From assembly GCA_028280415.1 (NCBI GenBank), contig JANQLV010000018.1, positions 1-51,359 on the forward strand: a stretch of DNA of 51,359 bases. The letters run 5' to 3'. Below the pieces are notes generated by a model. That model was not told the DNA's origin and did not search any database. It saw only the letters and a program-made list of their open reading frames with translations. Below, piece by piece: positions 15,764-25,545 of the stretch (its first letter is position 1; every line of letters starts with the position of its first letter). The DNA comes from Saprospiraceae bacterium (GTDB lineage Bacteria; Bacteroidota; Bacteroidia; Chitinophagales; Saprospiraceae). The position numbers and the translations under genes were made by a program.

Positions 15764-17098
15764 ATGAAAGTGAACCTGGCTTTTGATATTGGTAAGACGA
15801 ATAAAAAATGTATACTTTTCGACAAATCATCGAAGGTGCTTCATCGCATCTCTACCCGATTTGCCGAAAATAAAGATGAAGATGGATTTCCCTGTGACGA
15901 CCTGCAAGCAATCGTAAACTGGATTGATAAAAGCATCCATCAATTTCTACAGGATAAACGGTACAAAGTAAATTCTATAAACTTTTCTACCTACGGAGCG
16001 AGTTTTGTACACATCGATAAAAATGGGAAAGTACTAACTCCTTTATATAATTATTTGAAACCTTATCCTCCTAAGATTCTCAAAGCATTTTATAAAAAAC
16101 ATGGTCAGGCAAAAGATATTGCTCGCGCAACGGCCTCTCCACCGGAAGGCATGCTCAACTCCGGTTTGCAATTGTTTTGGATAAAAAAAACAAAACCAAA
16201 ACTGTTTAAGAAGATCAAATGGTCATTACATTTTCCACAATACCTCAGTTTTCTCTATACTCGAAAAGCCTGTAGTGAATATACCAGTATCGGATGCCAT
16301 ACCGGACTTTGGGATTATCAAAAACAAGATTATCATCAATGGGTATACGATGAAAAGATCAATCGCATTTTAGCCCCTGTCAGACAAACAAATTCATTTA
16401 TAAAAATCCGTTTCCATGACTATGCTAAAAAAATCAAAGTAGGAGCAGGTATACATGATAGTTCAGCAGCGATACTCCCTTATTTCCAAAAGACTAAAAA
16501 GCATTTTATTTTACTTTCGACCGGGACATGGAACGTACTATTAAATCCTTTCAATCAGAAAAACTTGAAGAAAAGCGATTTAGAAAATGGTTATTTGAAC
16601 TATATGCGCCTCGATGGCCATCCGGTTCGGGCAAGTCGTTTGCTTATGGGAAAAGAACATGAATGGCAAGTAAAAAAAATTGCAAAGCATTTTAATGTAA
16701 AAAAGCATTTTTCAAAACATATTAGGTTCGATAAAACTGTGATCAAAAAATTAAGCATTCCATTTAAAGCGCGATTTTCTTTTAAGTATATTGAAAACCT
16801 AAACTACAATTTAAAGAAGACTGAATTCGAAAAATTCAACTCAGCGACCGAAGCTTATTATCAATTGGTTTTAGAATTAGCCATGATTCAGGCAAAACGA
16901 ATCAGACTTTTATCGGAAAAGCAAAGCATTAGAAAAGTGTATATCGAAGGAGGTTTTGTGCAAAACAAAATCTTCCTAAAGGTGCTTAAAAAAGAGCTAC
17001 CGAATTTCAAAATAAAAATTTCAAAACATGGGAGTGCTCCCGCACTGGGCACTGCACTGTTGATAAATAGCAAGAAGCAAAATGCAGCATTCATTTGA
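15764..17098 (+). CDS. FGGY family carbohydrate kinase (rhamnulokinase/fuculokinase-like)
   Basis: A 444-aa kinase of the ASKHA fold. Phosphate-1 motif: AFDIGKTNKKCILFD near the N-terminus. Second phosphate loop: LLSTGTWNVLLNP. The catalytic Asp is probably in GAGIHDSSAAILPY. The adenosine motif is YIEGGFVQNKIFLKVL near the C-terminus. FGGY kinases phosphorylate sugars or ketoses; this type occurs in Bacteroidota clusters for L-rhamnose or L-fucose breakdown. The next gene (an FMN hydroxyacid oxidase) overlaps it by 17 bases, so the two are translated from one transcript. The product is lysine-rich, unlike its neighbours. Confidence 0.85.
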   Translation: MKVNLAFDIGKTNKKCILFDKSSKVLHRISTRFAENKDEDGFPCDDLQAIVNWIDKSIHQFLQDKRYKVNSINFSTYGASFVHIDKNGKVLTPLYNYLKPYPPKILKAFYKKHGQAKDIARATASPPEGMLNSGLQLFWIKKTKPKLFKKIKWSLHFPQYLSFLYTRKACSEYTSIGCHTGLWDYQKQDYHQWVYDEKINRILAPVRQTNSFIKIRFHDYAKKIKVGAGIHDSSAAILPYFQKTKKHFILLSTGTWNVLLNPFNQKNLKKSDLENGYLNYMRLDGHPVRASRLLMGKEHEWQVKKIAKHFNVKKHFSKHIRFDKTVIKKLSIPFKARFSFKYIENLNYNLKKTEFEKFNSATEAYYQLVLELAMIQAKRIRLLSEKQSIRKVYIEGGFVQNKIFLKVLKKELPNFKIKISKHGSAPALGTALLINSKKQNAAFI

Positions 17099-18230
17099 CC
17101 CAAGATATCCTTCAATCGAAGATTTGAGAAAAAAAGCCCGGCAAAGAATCCCCAAATTTGCATTCGAATACCTGGACGGAGGTTGCTATTCGGAAGTTAA
17201 TTTACATCGAAATACAGCTGAGATTCGGGAGGTCCAACTAAAGCCTTTTTATCTAAGAGATTATGAAGGAGCAAGTATCAAAACCAGATTATTCGGAAAA
17301 GAATACGATGCACCCTTCGGAATTTCACCCATCGGTTTACAAGATTTGATGTGGCCGGGAGCCTCTGAAATTCTGGCAAAAGCTGCTTTTGAGCATAATA
17401 TTCCCTATATCCTGAGTACAGTGGGTACAGCCAGTATCGAAACCATCGGAGCAATTACGGAAGGCAATGCCTGGTTTCAGCTATATCATCCGAAAGAAGA
17501 TGAATTGCGCGATCAATTGATCCAAAGAGCAGCAGATGCCGGCTATCCAGTTCTTGTGATTTTATCAGATGTCCCGACCTTTGCTTATCGCCCCAAAGAA
17601 ATTAAAAATGGTTTGTCGATCCCTCCGCGTATGACCTTTCGCAATATTATGCAAATACTCGGTAGTCCGCAATGGGCACTGCAAACCCTAATCAAGGGTC
17701 AGCCGGATTTTAAAACCATGAAGCCCTACATTCCCAAAGGACTTAGCTTAAGGCATCTGGGGCTGTTTATGAATAAGATTTTTTCGGGCCGACTCAATGC
17801 GGAAAAGATTAAACCCATCCGGGATATGTGGAAAGGCAAATTGGTATTGAAAGGAGTAGCCAGCGAGGAAGATGTCCGGATAGCGATTGAACTCGGCCTG
17901 GACGGGATCATTGTTTCCAATCACGGAGGTCGGCAGTTAGATGCCGGACAATCTTCGATAAAACCAATGACAGAAATAGCAAAAAAATTCAAAGGTCAGA
18001 TCAGTATCATGATGGATAGCGGAATTCGTTCCGGACCGGATATTGCCTGTACGCTGGCCAGCGGTGCCGAATTTACTTTCCTGGGCAGATCATTCATGTA
18101 TGGAGTAGCAGCTCTGGGAGCAAAAGGCGGTGATCATACGATTGGCATTCTTAAAAATCAATTGCAACAGGTCATGGAACAAATTTGCTGTTCAGGGGTA
18201 CAAGATATCCATCAGCATCTGGTCAGGTAA
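17082..18230 (+). CDS. FMN-dependent alpha-hydroxyacid oxidase/L-lactate dehydrogenase-like
   Basis: A 382-aa TIM-barrel flavoprotein. The family signature near the C-terminus is SNHGGRQLD (His281 as catalytic base, Arg284 for substrate carboxylate), followed by MMDSGIRSGPDI and GAEFTFLGRSFMYG for FMN phosphate. The N-terminal RIPKFAFEYLDGG supplies the active-site Tyr. In Bacteroidota deoxysugar pathways such enzymes are proposed to oxidise the L-lactate formed from L-lactaldehyde. The gene overlaps the kinase by 17 bases (17082-17098), strong evidence of coupling. No isomerase or aldolase gene lies nearby, so the pathway is incomplete here. Confidence 0.88.
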   Translation: MQHSFDPRYPSIEDLRKKARQRIPKFAFEYLDGGCYSEVNLHRNTAEIREVQLKPFYLRDYEGASIKTRLFGKEYDAPFGISPIGLQDLMWPGASEILAKAAFEHNIPYILSTVGTASIETIGAITEGNAWFQLYHPKEDELRDQLIQRAADAGYPVLVILSDVPTFAYRPKEIKNGLSIPPRMTFRNIMQILGSPQWALQTLIKGQPDFKTMKPYIPKGLSLRHLGLFMNKIFSGRLNAEKIKPIRDMWKGKLVLKGVASEEDVRIAIELGLDGIIVSNHGGRQLDAGQSSIKPMTEIAKKFKGQISIMMDSGIRSGPDIACTLASGAEFTFLGRSFMYGVAALGAKGGDHTIGILKNQLQQVMEQICCSGVQDIHQHLVR

Positions 18231-18245
18231 AACAATAGACTTGAA

Positions 18246-18268
18246 TAACTGAAAATAAGAATCAGTTA
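18246..18268. terminator. Weak bidirectional hairpin between convergent genes
   Basis: TAACTGA/TCAGTTA arms with a 9-base loop lie in the 90-base spacer between the oxidase and the symporter. There is no T-run on either strand, so a role in termination is uncertain. Confidence 0.3.
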
Positions 18269-18320
18269 CAATAAAGATAAAGACATGCATGCCTAAGCAA
18301 CAATTAGCCCAGTCAGGCAA

Positions 18321-19973
18321 TCAGGCAAAGTACCAGTAGATGCCAATCACAATAACAATTATAGCCATACCGAAGGGCATCAAATACTTATAGGGCTCGA
18401 TATTGACTTGCTTGGTATAAGGGAGTACAAAATCCGTTTCTCTCGGTTTTATCTTTCCGATGATTAGCATGATGATTACATTGAAAACAAACAGAATTGC
18501 CATGACGTGCAAGAAGTGCGGATAGGCCAGTTTCTCTACATCTGCCAGGGTCGCCTCATCGCTAATCCCACTTGCCTTAGCCGCCTCAACAGCTTTATTC
18601 ACAAAATGGGGTTTGAGTACAAATTGGCTAATAGTATAAAGAAACATTCCAGATAAAAGGCCTATGTTTGCAGCCAGAGCCGGAACTCGCTTCGTTAAGT
18701 ATCCCACAATAATAATGGTTAGAATAGGAATACTATAACATCCGTTGACTTCCTGTAAATAACCAAAAAGACCATCCGGTGCATTAGCAATTAGAGGTGC
18801 AATAAACATAGAAAGCAGGGCCAGTACAATACCGAATATTTTACCCTTTCGGACTACCTGCCGGTCCGTCGCATCGGGATTGATAAATGCTTTGTAAATA
18901 TCCAAACCAAAAAGCGTTACGGAGCTATTCAATGCACTATTAAAAGAACTAAGAATTGCACCAAAAAGTACTGCTGCAAAAAAACCGAGCAATCCAACCG
19001 GTAATACTTTATTCACTAGTTTCGGATAAGCCTCATCAGCATCAATCAAGGTATCACCAAAAATATAGAAAGCAATAATTCCGGGTAAAACAACAATGAT
19101 AGGGCCAAGGATTTTGAAGAATGCCGCTAATAATAATCCCTTTTGCCCTTCTTGCAAATTTTTAGCCCCCAGGGCCCTTTGTATGATCGCCTGGTTCGTT
19201 CCCCAGTAAAACAATTGTACTAACATCATTCCGGTAAAGATAGTGGCAAAGGGAACGGAGTTGGTTTTATCTCCAATTGAGTTGAATTTCTCCGGAACCT
19301 TTTCCATCAATAAGGCCACCCCCTCCCCTACATTACCATCGCCAATATACATCAGGCCAAAAACCGGAATAAACAAACCACCAATCAATAAGCCAATTGC
19401 ATTAATCGAATCCGATACGGCAACCGCTTTGAGTCCTCCAAAAACTGCATAGATCGATCCGACGATCCCAATGCCCCAAACACATAGCCACAGACATTGG
19501 GTCTTGTTCATTCCCAATAGTCCAGGCAAATCAAACATCGTCACGATTGCCAAAGCTCCGGAATAAAGTACAATCGGTAATAATACCACTACATAGCCGG
19601 ATAAAAATAATCCCGAAGTCAGACCTTTTGTATATTTATTAAATCGCACTTCGAGGAACTGTGGAACGGTGGAGATGCCACCTTTCAAGTACCTGGGCAA
19701 TAATAGGATAGCCGTTACTACCATCGCAATCGCTGCAAGCGTTTCCCAGGCCATGACCAGTATGCCTTCAGAATATGCCTGTCCATTGAGACCTACGATT
19801 TGTTCCGTAGAAAGGTTTGTTAAGAGCAGGGAACCGGCAATTACACCAGCGGTAAGACTTCTTCCTCCCAGGAAGTAACCATCGGATTCGTTTTCGTTTG
19901 TTCCTAATGTAGCCCAATACGATATGGCTGCCACAAGTAATGTGAAACCTAAAAAGCTCACTATTGCGATCAT
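18321..19973 (-). CDS. Solute:sodium symporter (SSS) family transporter
   Basis: A 550-aa membrane protein with about 13-14 hydrophobic spans. The SSS family is recognised from YFLGGRSLTAGVIAGSLLLT, the LNGQAYSEG segment, FGGLKAVAVSD, and the SSFNSALNSSVTLFGLDIYK stretch with the sodium-site serines. Overall it resembles the YidK/SglT-type sugar symporters. Its convergent position next to the FGGY kinase and hydroxyacid oxidase suggests it imports the sugar they process; this is inference. The 5' leader has a 15-bp perfect inverted repeat. The stop codon lies within a tandem TCAGGCAA duplication (18313-18328). Confidence 0.88.
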   Translation of the reverse strand: MIAIVSFLGFTLLVAAISYWATLGTNENESDGYFLGGRSLTAGVIAGSLLLTNLSTEQIVGLNGQAYSEGILVMAWETLAAIAMVVTAILLLPRYLKGGISTVPQFLEVRFNKYTKGLTSGLFLSGYVVVLLPIVLYSGALAIVTMFDLPGLLGMNKTQCLWLCVWGIGIVGSIYAVFGGLKAVAVSDSINAIGLLIGGLFIPVFGLMYIGDGNVGEGVALLMEKVPEKFNSIGDKTNSVPFATIFTGMMLVQLFYWGTNQAIIQRALGAKNLQEGQKGLLLAAFFKILGPIIVVLPGIIAFYIFGDTLIDADEAYPKLVNKVLPVGLLGFFAAVLFGAILSSFNSALNSSVTLFGLDIYKAFINPDATDRQVVRKGKIFGIVLALLSMFIAPLIANAPDGLFGYLQEVNGCYSIPILTIIIVGYLTKRVPALAANIGLLSGMFLYTISQFVLKPHFVNKAVEAAKASGISDEATLADVEKLAYPHFLHVMAILFVFNVIIMLIIGKIKPRETDFVLPYTKQVNIEPYKYLMPFGMAIIVIVIGIYWYFA

Positions 19974-22907: not shown

Positions 22908-23816
22908 CTATTCTTCCAACAGAATTATTTCCACCCTTCTGTTCTTTGCTCTTCCCTCGGCGGTATCATTGGAAGCAATTGGCTTTGTATTTCCAAGGCC
23001 ACGCGTACTCAGTCGATTGGAATTGATCCCGGCATTTCTGACGATATAGGCCCTTACATTCTGGGCCCAGTTTTGGGAAAGTTGTAAATTATCCTCAGCA
23101 GTTCCCTGATTATCGGTATAGCCGTTCACAGCAAGTCCGGTATTGGGAACATGATCGAGATAGAAAGAAAGATCAGCGAAATCCTGACGCTGTTGAGTAG
23201 TGAGATCAATGCGATCGGAACCTTTTGCAAAATGCAAAATGACAGCTTGGTCCAAAAGCCTGGCTTTAATCCGGGCAAGACGGCTGGCATTATTATTCGT
23301 ATCGGTAAACGAAAATCTCAAGCCATTGCTCAAAGTATCCTTGATAAAGCAAGTTGCTCCATCATTAATTCCCTGCACCTCAATTTGATTCGCCGGCGCA
23401 GTAAAACCAGTTAATATATTTTTGATCATCTTTGCCCTGGCCATTCCCAGATTGGGCAAAATACCTGTATAATTTTCATCCTCAGCGTATCTGCCGGTAA
23501 TCAGAAGAAATCGATCCCCATTTTTTGCAACATAACGTGCCGTTTCTTTTAAAGCATTTTCAGTACGAGCCGATATGGAAAGATTTTTAAATTCGGAATG
23601 TAGAAATCGTACATTCTGGTCAGATTCGCTGGAAAAATTTGCGCCATCGCTTATCTGGAGGGGAGCATGACATTGATCATCTGCACCTGCAAGGGATGTA
23701 TCAGATATAGTTGTCTTGGTATTACCTGAATCCAAACCAAGGTATGTTTTATAAAACCACCAGGCAAGAATCCCCAATAAGACCAATAAAAGTCCATAGA
23801 GTAAAAGCTTCTTCAT
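22908..23816 (-). CDS. OmpA-family protein with tandem OmpA-like domains and an N-terminal anchor
   Basis: A 302-aa protein with one N-terminal transmembrane helix (LLLYGLLLVLLGILAWWFY). The C-terminal OmpA peptidoglycan-binding domain is clear: ILHFAKGSDRIDLTTQQ, LAVNGYTDNQGTAEDN, LSQNWAQNVRAYIV, STRGLGNTKPIASND, AKNRRVEIILLEE; the usual NRRVE is intact. An upstream region (ALKETARYVAKNGDRFLLIT, LPNLGMARAKMIKNILTG, NQIEVQG) has the same order of elements and looks like a diverged second OmpA domain. It probably links the inner membrane to peptidoglycan. Confidence 0.82.
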   Translation of the reverse strand: MKKLLLYGLLLVLLGILAWWFYKTYLGLDSGNTKTTISDTSLAGADDQCHAPLQISDGANFSSESDQNVRFLHSEFKNLSISARTENALKETARYVAKNGDRFLLITGRYAEDENYTGILPNLGMARAKMIKNILTGFTAPANQIEVQGINDGATCFIKDTLSNGLRFSFTDTNNNASRLARIKARLLDQAVILHFAKGSDRIDLTTQQRQDFADLSFYLDHVPNTGLAVNGYTDNQGTAEDNLQLSQNWAQNVRAYIVRNAGINSNRLSTRGLGNTKPIASNDTAEGRAKNRRVEIILLEE

Positions 23817-24118
23817 AGCTATATTTTGAAAATAAAAAATCCATCAATAAGTCAAAAATAGATTGATGACTGTCTTGTAAAGTTGAAAGCTTAAGATAAA
23901 AAAACTAAAAGGGGCAAGGAAATATCAGAAGCAAATATTTCATTAAAAAAGAGGTATCCAATTAGGGTGGAAAGGAAATTGTATTGATGTATGCGGGGTT
24001 AGAGACCAAACAGGATGGTAGGTTCTTTCAACCAGAGGTACTTGAAAACTTGTTAAAAAAACTCACCATCCATGATTCCAATATTTGAGGTTATGTTGTA
24101 ATTTACCTACCTATAAAC
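23817..24118. other. 302-base spacer between the OmpA-like and lectin genes
   Basis: Apart from the OmpA promoter and inverted repeat at 23842-23868, I see no gene, terminator or repeat in this AT-rich stretch. Confidence 0.5.
23842..23868 (-). promoter_or_regulatory. Promoter -7 box inside an inverted repeat, OmpA-like gene
   Basis: On the minus strand TATTTTTG (23860-23853) matches TAnnTTTG perfectly and lies 37 bases before the ATG. It is centred in CATCAAT (23842-23848) / ATTGATG (23862-23868), perfect arms with a 13-base spacer. A repressor bound there would cover the -7 box. Confidence 0.45.
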
Positions 24119-24463
24119 TTAGAACGAGTACTTAATTTCAACGACACTCATTTCTCCCTCAACGATCGTATTCCATTGACCCGTAAATTCTGCACCATAA
24201 GAAGCAGCAATAGCAGGACCTATAGCTTGAGCTTCATCATTGCTCCAAAGTGGCCCGGCGATTACATTCGTTTTGTATTCATTTTTTCCGCCATTAGCAA
24301 CGTGTAATTCAACTTCGACAACGCTCATTTTTCCTTCAACTACTGTATTCCAGTTTCCGGTCCATTTGCCCTGATGCGCAGCAGCAATTTTAGGCGCTTT
24401 TACCTTAGCATCTTCATTGTCCCAAATTGGACCTGCGGGGATGTTTACTTTAAATGTTGACAT
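24119..24463 (-). CDS. mvl: MVL-type mannan-binding lectin (two-repeat)
   Basis: A 114-aa protein made of two homologous units, residues 4-53 and 63-113. Each has GP(I/L)WxNxxA, then P(K/A)IAA, then (W/F)TGxWNT(V/I)VEG(K/E)MSVVE. This is the arrangement and nearly the sequence of MVL, the oligomannose-binding lectin of the cyanobacterium Microcystis viridis (113 aa); MVL recognises the Man-beta-GlcNAc core and a glycosidase activity has been reported for it. There is no signal peptide, as in MVL, so the protein is cytoplasmic or released by an unknown route. The biological role is unknown. The gene stands alone on the minus strand. Confidence 0.9.
   Translation of the reverse strand: MSTFKVNIPAGPIWDNEDAKVKAPKIAAAHQGKWTGNWNTVVEGKMSVVEVELHVANGGKNEYKTNVIAGPLWSNDEAQAIGPAIAASYGAEFTGQWNTIVEGEMSVVEIKYSF
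24134..24353 (-). repeat. Internal gene duplication in the lectin (two DNA copies)
   Basis: The segments coding for WNT(V/I)VEGxMSVVE are visible as a direct DNA repeat around 24134-24172 and 24317-24353, about 180 bases apart. They differ at many third positions, so the duplication is old. Confidence 0.6.
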
Positions 24464-24496
24464 TTTTTAGGGGTTTAATTTTGCCTACTCTTTAAA

Positions 24497-24544
24497 AAAT
24501 GGTTTTTCGGCGAACACCATTTCAAAATATCCGGATGAATATTT
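24497..24544 (-). promoter_or_regulatory. Two inverted repeats in the lectin leader
   Basis: AAATGGT (24497-24503) and ACCATTT (24516-24522) form a stem, with an inner TTCG/CGAA pairing in the loop. AAATAT (24525-24530) and ATATTT (24539-24544) flank an ATCCGGAT palindrome. Both lie between the candidate promoter and the lectin ATG, so they would be in the mRNA leader. Confidence 0.5.
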
Positions 24545-24569: not shown

Positions 24570-24804
24570 GATATTTTCACTGCCGCATAACAGCGTAAAT
24601 TTACCCGATTCCTAAAAACACGTAGAAACACCTATATGGTAGGTAGTTCTGGCTTATCAAGCTCTAGTTGAAATAATGGGCTCAGGCAAACAGAGAGGAG
24701 GACCTGTTCATTGCACGAAAATCAAGAACCAGGCTAGTTCTACGAAAGAAACGGAAAAATGGATAATCCTGGCCCGCCAATTATTTAAAGAAGAAAAAGA
24801 ATGA

Positions 24805-25545
24805 TTAGAGTCGATCAAGCAATTTCATCACCATTGGTTTTTTACGGATAGATACAGATACATGGGAACCATCCCGCATTACCAAATATCCTCCTTCGGT
24901 TTTTATATATTCCTTGATGTGGTCGGCATTTATCAGATGCGATTGATGCACGCGAATAAAATTAAATTCTACCAGTAACTTTTCGTATTCTTTCAGTGTT
25001 TTGGTAACCAGAAGTTTTTGCTTGTCGGTAAAAAAGAAGGTGGTATAGTTTCCACTGGATTCACAGCGAATAATATCTCTGATTTCCGTTACCTGGATTT
25101 TATCAAGGGTATGCAGGGCCAGTTTTCTGGGGCTGGTCTTTTCCTTTACCGTGTCCAGAAGCAAATCTACATTCTCGCGGCTATCCGGTTGACTATCCTT
25201 GCATTTTTGTACGGCTTCCTGTAATTCTTCCGGATTGATGGGCTTGAGCAAATAATCGATAGCGGAAAAGCGAAAGGCCTTTATGGCATGTTCGTCAGAG
25301 GCAGTAGTGAATATAATTTTAAAAGAAATGTCTCCCAGGATTTCGAGGATGTCGAATCCTGTTCCGTCTTGAAGTTCGATGTCCAGAAAAACCACATCGG
25401 GTTGTAATTGCTTAATCAATTTTGTTCCACTTACCACACTGGGAGCTTCGGCAATGACCTCTACTTCCGGGCAATAATTTTGAAGATCGTTTTTCAATAA
25501 ATCAATCGCCTGTGGAATGTCATCAACTATAATTGCTTTTATCAT
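24805..25545 (-). CDS. LytTR-type response regulator
   Basis: A 246-aa protein with an N-terminal receiver domain (acidic pocket Asp8/Asp9, phosphoacceptor Asp55 in VVFLDIEL, switch Thr in FTTASD, Lys in DYLLKP) and a C-terminal LytTR DNA-binding domain from about residue 140 (IRCESSGNYTTFFFTD, FIRVHQSHLINADHIKEY). It is the last gene of a minus-strand operon after the sensor kinase and a lipoprotein (gap 41 bases). LytTR regulators bind pairs of short direct repeats; the target here is unknown. Confidence 0.92.
   Translation of the reverse strand: MIKAIIVDDIPQAIDLLKNDLQNYCPEVEVIAEAPSVVSGTKLIKQLQPDVVFLDIELQDGTGFDILEILGDISFKIIFTTASDEHAIKAFRFSAIDYLLKPINPEELQEAVQKCKDSQPDSRENVDLLLDTVKEKTSPRKLALHTLDKIQVTEIRDIIRCESSGNYTTFFFTDKQKLLVTKTLKEYEKLLVEFNFIRVHQSHLINADHIKEYIKTEGGYLVMRDGSHVSVSIRKKPMVMKLLDRL

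Follow-up and report, generated by a model that had tools for sequence, protein, structure and literature searches.

A DUF805b-type leader RNA found mainly before genes for exported-looking proteins also leads an MVL-family lectin gene in a Saprospiraceae bacterium

What does a homologue of the Microcystis viridis lectin MVL do in a Saprospiraceae bacterium? The minimal ligand of MVL is the Man(a1-6)Man(b1-4)GlcNAc(b1-4)GlcNAc core of oligomannosides, and the lectin is a homodimer with four sites (PMC3407925, in part). The portions of the literature consulted here name no natural role for MVL and treat it as an antiviral reagent. The stretch of DNA analysed (hereafter the window) comprises 51,359 nucleotides of contig JANQLV010000018.1, contig C40 of the 7.1-Mb host genome, and its initial annotation described an MVL-type lectin that might have spread horizontally or might serve anti-phage defence or prey/host recognition. 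The unexpected part of the locus proved to be a leader RNA and the company that this RNA keeps, rather than the lectin. The features concerned are collected in Table 1.

Table 1. Features at and around the lectin gene, in window coordinates
Feature	Position	Strand	Basis or remark
OmpA-domain protein, downstream neighbour	22908..23816	-	Pfam; counterpart in congener G123, 44% identity
MVL-family lectin gene; product of 114 aa in two units, each about 54 aa long, without signal peptide	24119..24463	-	Pfam, PDB sequence, predicted fold
Spacer between element and lectin start codon, 18 nt	24464..24481	-	
DUF805b-type leader RNA	24482..24520	-	Rfam RF02914 33.2 bits; model R1 40.9 bits, E 4.2e-10
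Proposed pseudoknot helix, 3' side GGC	24483..24485	-	inside AGAGTAGGC
Stem 1, 3' side	24500..24503	-	pairs with 24516..24519
Proposed pseudoknot helix, 5' side GCC	24509..24511	-	pairs with GGC at 24483-24485
Stem 1, 5' side	24516..24519	-	pairs with 24500-24503
LytTR response regulator, upstream neighbour	24805..25545	-	Pfam; orthologs 79% and 75% identical in two congeners

The lectin gene was correctly delimited in the initial annotation and lies on the minus strand, with its ATG at 24463 and its stop at 24119-24121, the plus-strand reading of the same interval being broken by stops. The assignment to the MVL family, with two units nearly colinear with MVL, is borne out by several searches. 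Pfam MVL (PF12151) matched the protein in two stretches at 54.5 bits (E 1.2e-14), the cut-off being 25, and in a whole-genome search unit 1 (GPIWDNEDA...WNTVVEGKMSVVE) and unit 2 (GPLWSNDEA...WNTIVEGEMSVVE) singly reached 29.4 and 27.9 bits, each above that cut-off. With phmmer, residues 3-114 aligned with residues 2-113 of crystallised MVL (PDB 1zhq/1zhs; E 1.1e-51), full-length and colinear at 71% identity, and the predicted fold is the MVL fold, with 1zhq as the best structure match and all further matches at noise level. In a structure alignment covering 27 of the 50 MVL proteins (3 of the 24 Chryseobacterium ones included), W14, W38, W97, the two GP motifs and the two MS motifs do not vary, and W73 hardly does. 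By pairwise alignment, D76 (in SNDEAQ) corresponds to MVL D75, and unit 1 carries a glutamate, E17, where unit 1 of MVL has alanine. The N-terminus (MSTFKVNIPAGPIW...) has no hydrophobic run, in keeping with the reported lack of a signal peptide. Judged by sequence and predicted structure, the protein is almost certainly an MVL-family lectin; it is a further member of a known family, unsurprising in Bacteroidota and by itself ordinary. It differs from the Microcystis viridis protein in its Saprospiraceae-type host, in Glu instead of Ala at position 17, and in the DUF805b-type leader of its gene, a comparison that covers the window side only.

The MVL gene is single-copy in the host genome, in which PF12151 gave no second match, and none of 14 control genomes had a match. 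MVL genes are sparse around the host: with its own genome counted each time, matches occurred in 3 of 198 genomes of its family (the others being G108 and G074, which agree with the annotated Bacteroidota setting), in 2 of 395 of the phylum sample and in 2 of 396 of the order sample. The order of the Chryseobacterium genome G457 had 7 of 395, six of the seven in G457's genus, and 37 of 118 Chryseobacterium genomes carried the gene. Scanning GTDB genomes yielded 47 loci with MVL relatives, mostly from Bacteroidota, 24 of them from Chryseobacterium and others, such as L034 and L011, from records named Saprospiraceae, the remaining records including Ignavibacteria, Puniceicoccales, Halothermothrix, Butyrivibrio, Litchfieldella, Anaerolineae, Myxococcota, Acidimicrobiales and Catenuloplanes; many of the 47 are metagenome-assembled genomes (MAGs), in which binning errors are possible. 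That scan, with two narrow search patterns, returned no cyanobacteria, and no MVL relatives were found in viral contigs, phage records or plasmids. The description of such proteins as mainly known from Microcystis is outdated and not supported, and MVL in Bacteroidota had already been published, the protein of Polaribacter reichenbachii having served as an outgroup (excerpts of PMC10655256).

In a tree of 35 MVL proteins, 8 of the 24 from Chryseobacterium among them, phyla were mixed and 16 of 32 inner branches were open. The cyanobacterial member, Microcystis MVL, grouped with proteins from Saprospiraceae, Puniceicoccales and Sphingobacteriales (support 92/86, unstarred), and the Litchfieldella protein was the sister of that of Flavicella with starred support.

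A comparison with two congeners adds to this picture. The order of the kinase, lipoprotein-like, LytTR and OmpA genes in G123 is that of the window, but the OmpA counterpart comes directly after the response regulator with no lectin between, leaving a gap of 271 bp versus 988 bp (lectin included) in the window. G016 retains the genes for the kinase and the LytTR protein; a search there for the OmpA neighbour came back empty, and neither congener has the MVL gene. A gain in the window lineage is a simpler reading than losses in the two congeners, though not certain. The patchy presence, the phylum-mixing protein tree and the empty site in a congener together support the proposed horizontal spread of MVL lectins, as far as sequence comparison can tell; yet codon use of the gene is ordinary (GC3 0.333 within a range of 0.309-0.458, score rank 28 of 39 window genes), so that the comparison with neighbours suggested earlier gave no sign of transfer and this line of evidence was dropped.

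A mobile-element explanation at the site was likewise dropped. The repeats there are short and imperfect, comprising two direct families (15 and 11 nt) and four inverted pairs, and the 20-nt inverted pair (80%) on either side of gene and element (23812-23831 and 24520-24539) is at chance level, an equally good pair occurring in 33 of 100 dinucleotide shuffles. The intergenic stretches of the window aligned with the G123 gap no better than shuffled controls, and scans for sigma-70 promoters and terminators found 0 and 0, Bacteroidota promoters lying outside the scope of the scan. A 42-aa reading frame on the plus strand (24679-24807) lies between leader and response regulator and has no relatives in the MVL loci compared. 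About 4-8 kb from the lectin, at 15764-19973, an FGGY-family carbohydrate kinase, an FMN-dependent dehydrogenase and a sodium:solute symporter are encoded, perhaps a cluster for sugar or sugar-acid use.

Several MVL relatives have arrangements of their own. Tandem MVL genes occur at L046:274-1118, where each copy has its own leader element, and at L011:7029-8020, where only the first has one. The Catenuloplanes homologue (L055:9800-10336) has, by eye, a twin-arginine-like export N-terminus, and in an Anaerolineae MAG (L016:1312-2274) two OAA-family units and two MVL units share one frame whose true start is uncertain. The OAA family (PF17882), likewise of small bacterial high-mannose lectins and thus joined to the MVL module in L016, is a separate Pfam family; a search of the host genome for it gave no match, and none in the controls either, so that absence is not shown. 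Two recurring neighbourhoods were seen in Chryseobacterium loci and only pairs elsewhere, no next-door gene being present in more than 2 of the 23 non-Chryseobacterium loci and the window by crude ORF clustering. The absence of an adjacent glycan gene, noted at the outset, is true of the window. In two distant loci MVL is followed at once, on its own strand, by genes that are related to each other (L010:3452-4366 and L046:1228-2514); the L010 product is weakly glycosyl hydrolase family 18 (GH18)-like (Pfam 18.6 bits versus a cut-off of 29.6; PDB chitotriosidase E 6.5e-5), and the L046 product had no Pfam hit. Some GH18 enzymes cleave the core of N-glycans. Such a neighbour would suit the MVL ligand, though little weight can be put on so weak a match.

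Upstream of the lectin lies an element absent from the initial annotation. A block is common to MVL upstream sequences, first hinted at when blastn aligned 46 bp of the window with L019, and Rfam matched it in the window to DUF805b (RF02914), a candidate cis-regulatory RNA, at 33.2 bits (E 9.5e-8 in 411 bases). Because this score falls 2.4 bits short of the gathering score of 35.6, the window copy is labelled DUF805b-type and is not filed as a member of RF02914. Like that family, it combines a hairpin with a AGAGTAGG tail in a 5' leader on the strand of the gene, and the CCGAAAA loop end and AGAGUAGG tail appear as in the Rfam alignment; the copy is set apart by its score below the cut-off, and here it leads a lectin gene and has support for a second, pseudoknotted helix. 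Seven of ten related MVL loci given to Rfam exceeded the gathering score, each just upstream of MVL. No paper on the DUF805b RNA was found, and none of the papers on 'DUF805' was about RNA by title and abstract start; the original description, reportedly in an earlier paper, lay outside the search.

To avoid circularity, a covariance model (R1) was based on 27 elements standing before genes other than MVL, 11 of them in the host genome and 16 in G016, G074 and G108. Over the 47 MVL loci and the window (869,245 bases; a crude count, for which the window was trimmed to 12 kb on either side, gave 802 ORFs with the MVL genes among them), R1 gave 13 hits at E < 1e-7, the weakest at 6.1e-8, and 13 of 13 lay directly upstream of an MVL start (the window, L009, L010, L011, L012, L017, L018, L019, L020, L023, L028 and both tandem genes of L046). 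After these came a hit elsewhere in L019 (E 0.0055) and one upstream of the L015 MVL gene (E 0.01), followed by 11 weaker ones. With the weak L015 hit counted, the element precedes 14 of the 26 MVL genes from outside Chryseobacterium and none of the 24 from within it; since 12 of the former and all 24 of the latter do without it, MVL does not need the element. In all 14 leaders the element lies on the strand of the gene and ends 14-30 nt before the start codon. Among seven loci added later, L129 has the element upstream of MVL (E 1e-5), L131 repeats the L015 gene and leader, and the other five, all from G457's genus, had no R1 hit up to E 1. The leader element is very probably real. Mapped on the MVL tree, the element label changes 8 times against a shuffled mean of 11.2, with 18 of 500 shuffles as low, so that a joint travel of gene and element is weakly shown.

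In L010, L018, L019 and L023 a further block (TCGATTRAGTAGCTRC...ATC), hairpin-like with a GTAGCTRC loop, stands 16-23 nt before the element. The GTAGCTRC pattern, chosen after the sequences had been read, was matched by 9 of the 14 MVL leaders and by 4 of the 27 non-MVL ones (means after shuffling 0.085 and 0.12); it is absent from the window and was not used as evidence.

A second helix was proposed in the element, in which three loop bases (NCY) are complementary to three tail bases (RGN'). Across the 27 non-MVL elements, 97.5% of the cells of this helix are paired, with exchanges between GC, UA, AU and CG at one pair and between CG and UA at another, and the whole structure is 94.1% paired compared with at most 53.2% when partners are slid by 1-3 columns. 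For the 14 MVL leaders the helix is 94.7% paired and the whole structure 93.3% versus at most 51.7% after sliding, one pair being broken in both L046 copies and the L015 tail being misaligned at the helix. The helix was derived from these same sequences, which makes the slid controls somewhat favourable, but the two-sided exchanges are independent of that. Because compensatory changes support the second helix, the element is predicted to be a pseudoknot; covariance models hold no pseudoknots, and the Rfam alignment is silent on whether the helix is already annotated.

The other genes behind the element give it a theme. The host genome contains at least 12 elements at E < 1e-4, the window copy included, 9 of them over the Rfam score; the whole-genome element searches scored 150 of thousands of first-look candidates, and their counts are lower bounds. 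The 14 control genomes had no element at E 1e-4, and their weak matches, present in all at E up to 1, included none over the cut-off; G123 likewise had none at E 1e-4 (150 of 3472 candidates scored). Of the other 11 host elements, 6 precede genes whose products match the T9SS type A sorting domain TIGR04183, reprolysin-like, endonuclease/exonuclease/phosphatase-like and Peptidase_S74 proteins among them, three of the 11 genes having been given to Pfam alone. Four more lead proteins with lipoprotein-like or Sec-like starts, including Bor-like and FG-GAP ones, and one leads a short FGG-type peptide beside grasp-with-spasm RiPP genes. The elements of G016, G074 and G108 keep similar company: proteins with Sec- or lipoprotein-like character, of which one has a subtilase domain, two short leader-type peptides, and four proteins with neither signal peptide nor Pfam match. 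A Sec-like start was seen in 18 of 26 element-led proteins and 27 of 90 other host ORFs (Fisher p 0.0005), by a home-made rule that missed the gene behind C33:66971, which looks signal-peptide bearing, in a set that leaves out the MVL genes and the element-led gene of L114 (which passes the rule) and includes some proteins cut at locus ends, and against an imperfect control drawn from the host genome only, near elements and in the window. In the host genome, then, the element leads mainly exported-looking proteins. The lectin, unlike most element-led proteins, has no signal peptide.

Element-led proteins without a signal peptide are also encoded at L108, L110, L113 and L119; none had a Pfam hit, and those of L110 and L113 had no PDB sequence hit. 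They are possible further cytosolic effectors of the same regulon. On contig C33 five elements lie within 23 kb (C33:50256-73134; L099, L100), several with a near-identical terminator-like sequence just upstream, which suggests duplicated leader cassettes before different exported proteins.

The reading that we somewhat favour is that a horizontally spread lectin has been wired into this exported-protein regulon and is aimed at eukaryotic N-glycans outside the cell. The leader RNA, which ends 18 nt before the start codon, would set the amount of lectin by folding or unfolding beside the ribosome landing site on some signal, presumably one common to the genes for secreted proteases, other T9SS cargo, lipoproteins and RiPPs, so that the lectin would be part of a programme for dealing with other organisms. 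As a dimer, like MVL, it would bind the Man-Man-GlcNAc-GlcNAc core found in N-glycans of eukaryotes; the OAA fusion of L016 and the export-type N-terminus of L055 point to glycans outside the cell. The prey/host recognition first suggested is still inference, but has become more likely because the leader is shared with exported proteins. An outward-facing role as such stands at about an even chance. The protein might be stored in the cytosol and released on lysis or when cells are eaten, or might leave by some other route and act as an adhesin for algae, protists or fungi. Storage with release would be the simplest route to an outward role; that the lectin takes it rather than being exported is a fair possibility, though less likely than not. 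The parallel with fungal CGL2-type fruiting-body lectins, which are cytosolic, without signal peptide and N-glycan-directed, as proposed for the window lectin, is functional and speculative, not sequence-based; the idea of defence by cytosolic lectins has been argued for these fungal proteins (PMC2798750, in part).

The best-placed alternative, which we regard as unlikely though worth weighing, is that the lectin acts inside the cell or on its own envelope, binding or cutting an endogenous GlcNAc- or mannose-containing glycan. MVL reportedly cleaves chito-oligosaccharides at its binding site via Asp75, and the retention of this residue as D76, together with E17 in place of the alanine of MVL unit 1, would fit such an activity. 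The lack of a signal peptide agrees with it, as do the presence of MVL in 37 of 118 Chryseobacterium genomes and the 24 Chryseobacterium loci without the element. An endogenous role accords less well with the patchy presence and the gain or loss between congeners, with the L016 fusion and the L055 N-terminus, and with the exported-looking proteins under the same leader.

It is improbable that the element is instead a DNA-level site, such as an attachment site or cassette end, with gene and element forming a mobile cassette devoid of regulation. The lectin is missing at the empty site of G123, a genome in which the element was also not found within the scope given above; the L046 tandem consists of two element-and-gene copies, five elements crowd on C33, and an inverted pair surrounds gene and element in the window, though at chance level. 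Against this stand the compensatory changes in two helices, the constant strand and the 14-30 nt distance in all 14 MVL leaders, and the presence of the element before large T9SS genes.

Anti-phage defence, the other role proposed originally, is very unlikely. The gene is accessory, small and patchy, and the OmpA neighbour matches ZorB models (best E 6.1e-12), as expected of OmpA/MotB domains generally; but PADLOC, given five window proteins, returned 0 hits for the lectin at E 0.01, the annotated neighbours (a kinase, a response regulator and the OmpA protein) form no known defence set, no neighbour recurs in more than two non-Chryseobacterium loci, and viral contigs, plasmids and phage records held no relatives. 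That the element is irrelevant to the lectin, through chance or hitch-hiking, would suit the 12 of 26 non-Chryseobacterium genes without it but is close to refuted by the 13 of 13 strong hits in 869 kb that lie just upstream of MVL starts, in several families and two phyla, and by the agreement of the later locus L129.

The reading of an outward-aimed lectin within the exported-protein regulon can be widened, tentatively, to the family. A small H-type pseudoknot of DUF805b type might control a set of exported proteins (T9SS proteases, lipoproteins and RiPPs) with which Bacteroidota interact with other organisms. Horizontally spread MVL lectins would have joined this programme, each with a copy of the switch before its gene, and would serve in it as effectors directed at eukaryotes; whatever MVL does in nature would then belong to the same programme. 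The leader data also supply an orphan RNA family with a second helix and with a thematic set of targets, concerned with export and with encounters between organisms. For MVL, well studied as an antiviral lectin, a leader shared with exported proteins offers a testable handle on its natural role, and finding what the RNA senses may reveal the job of the lectin.
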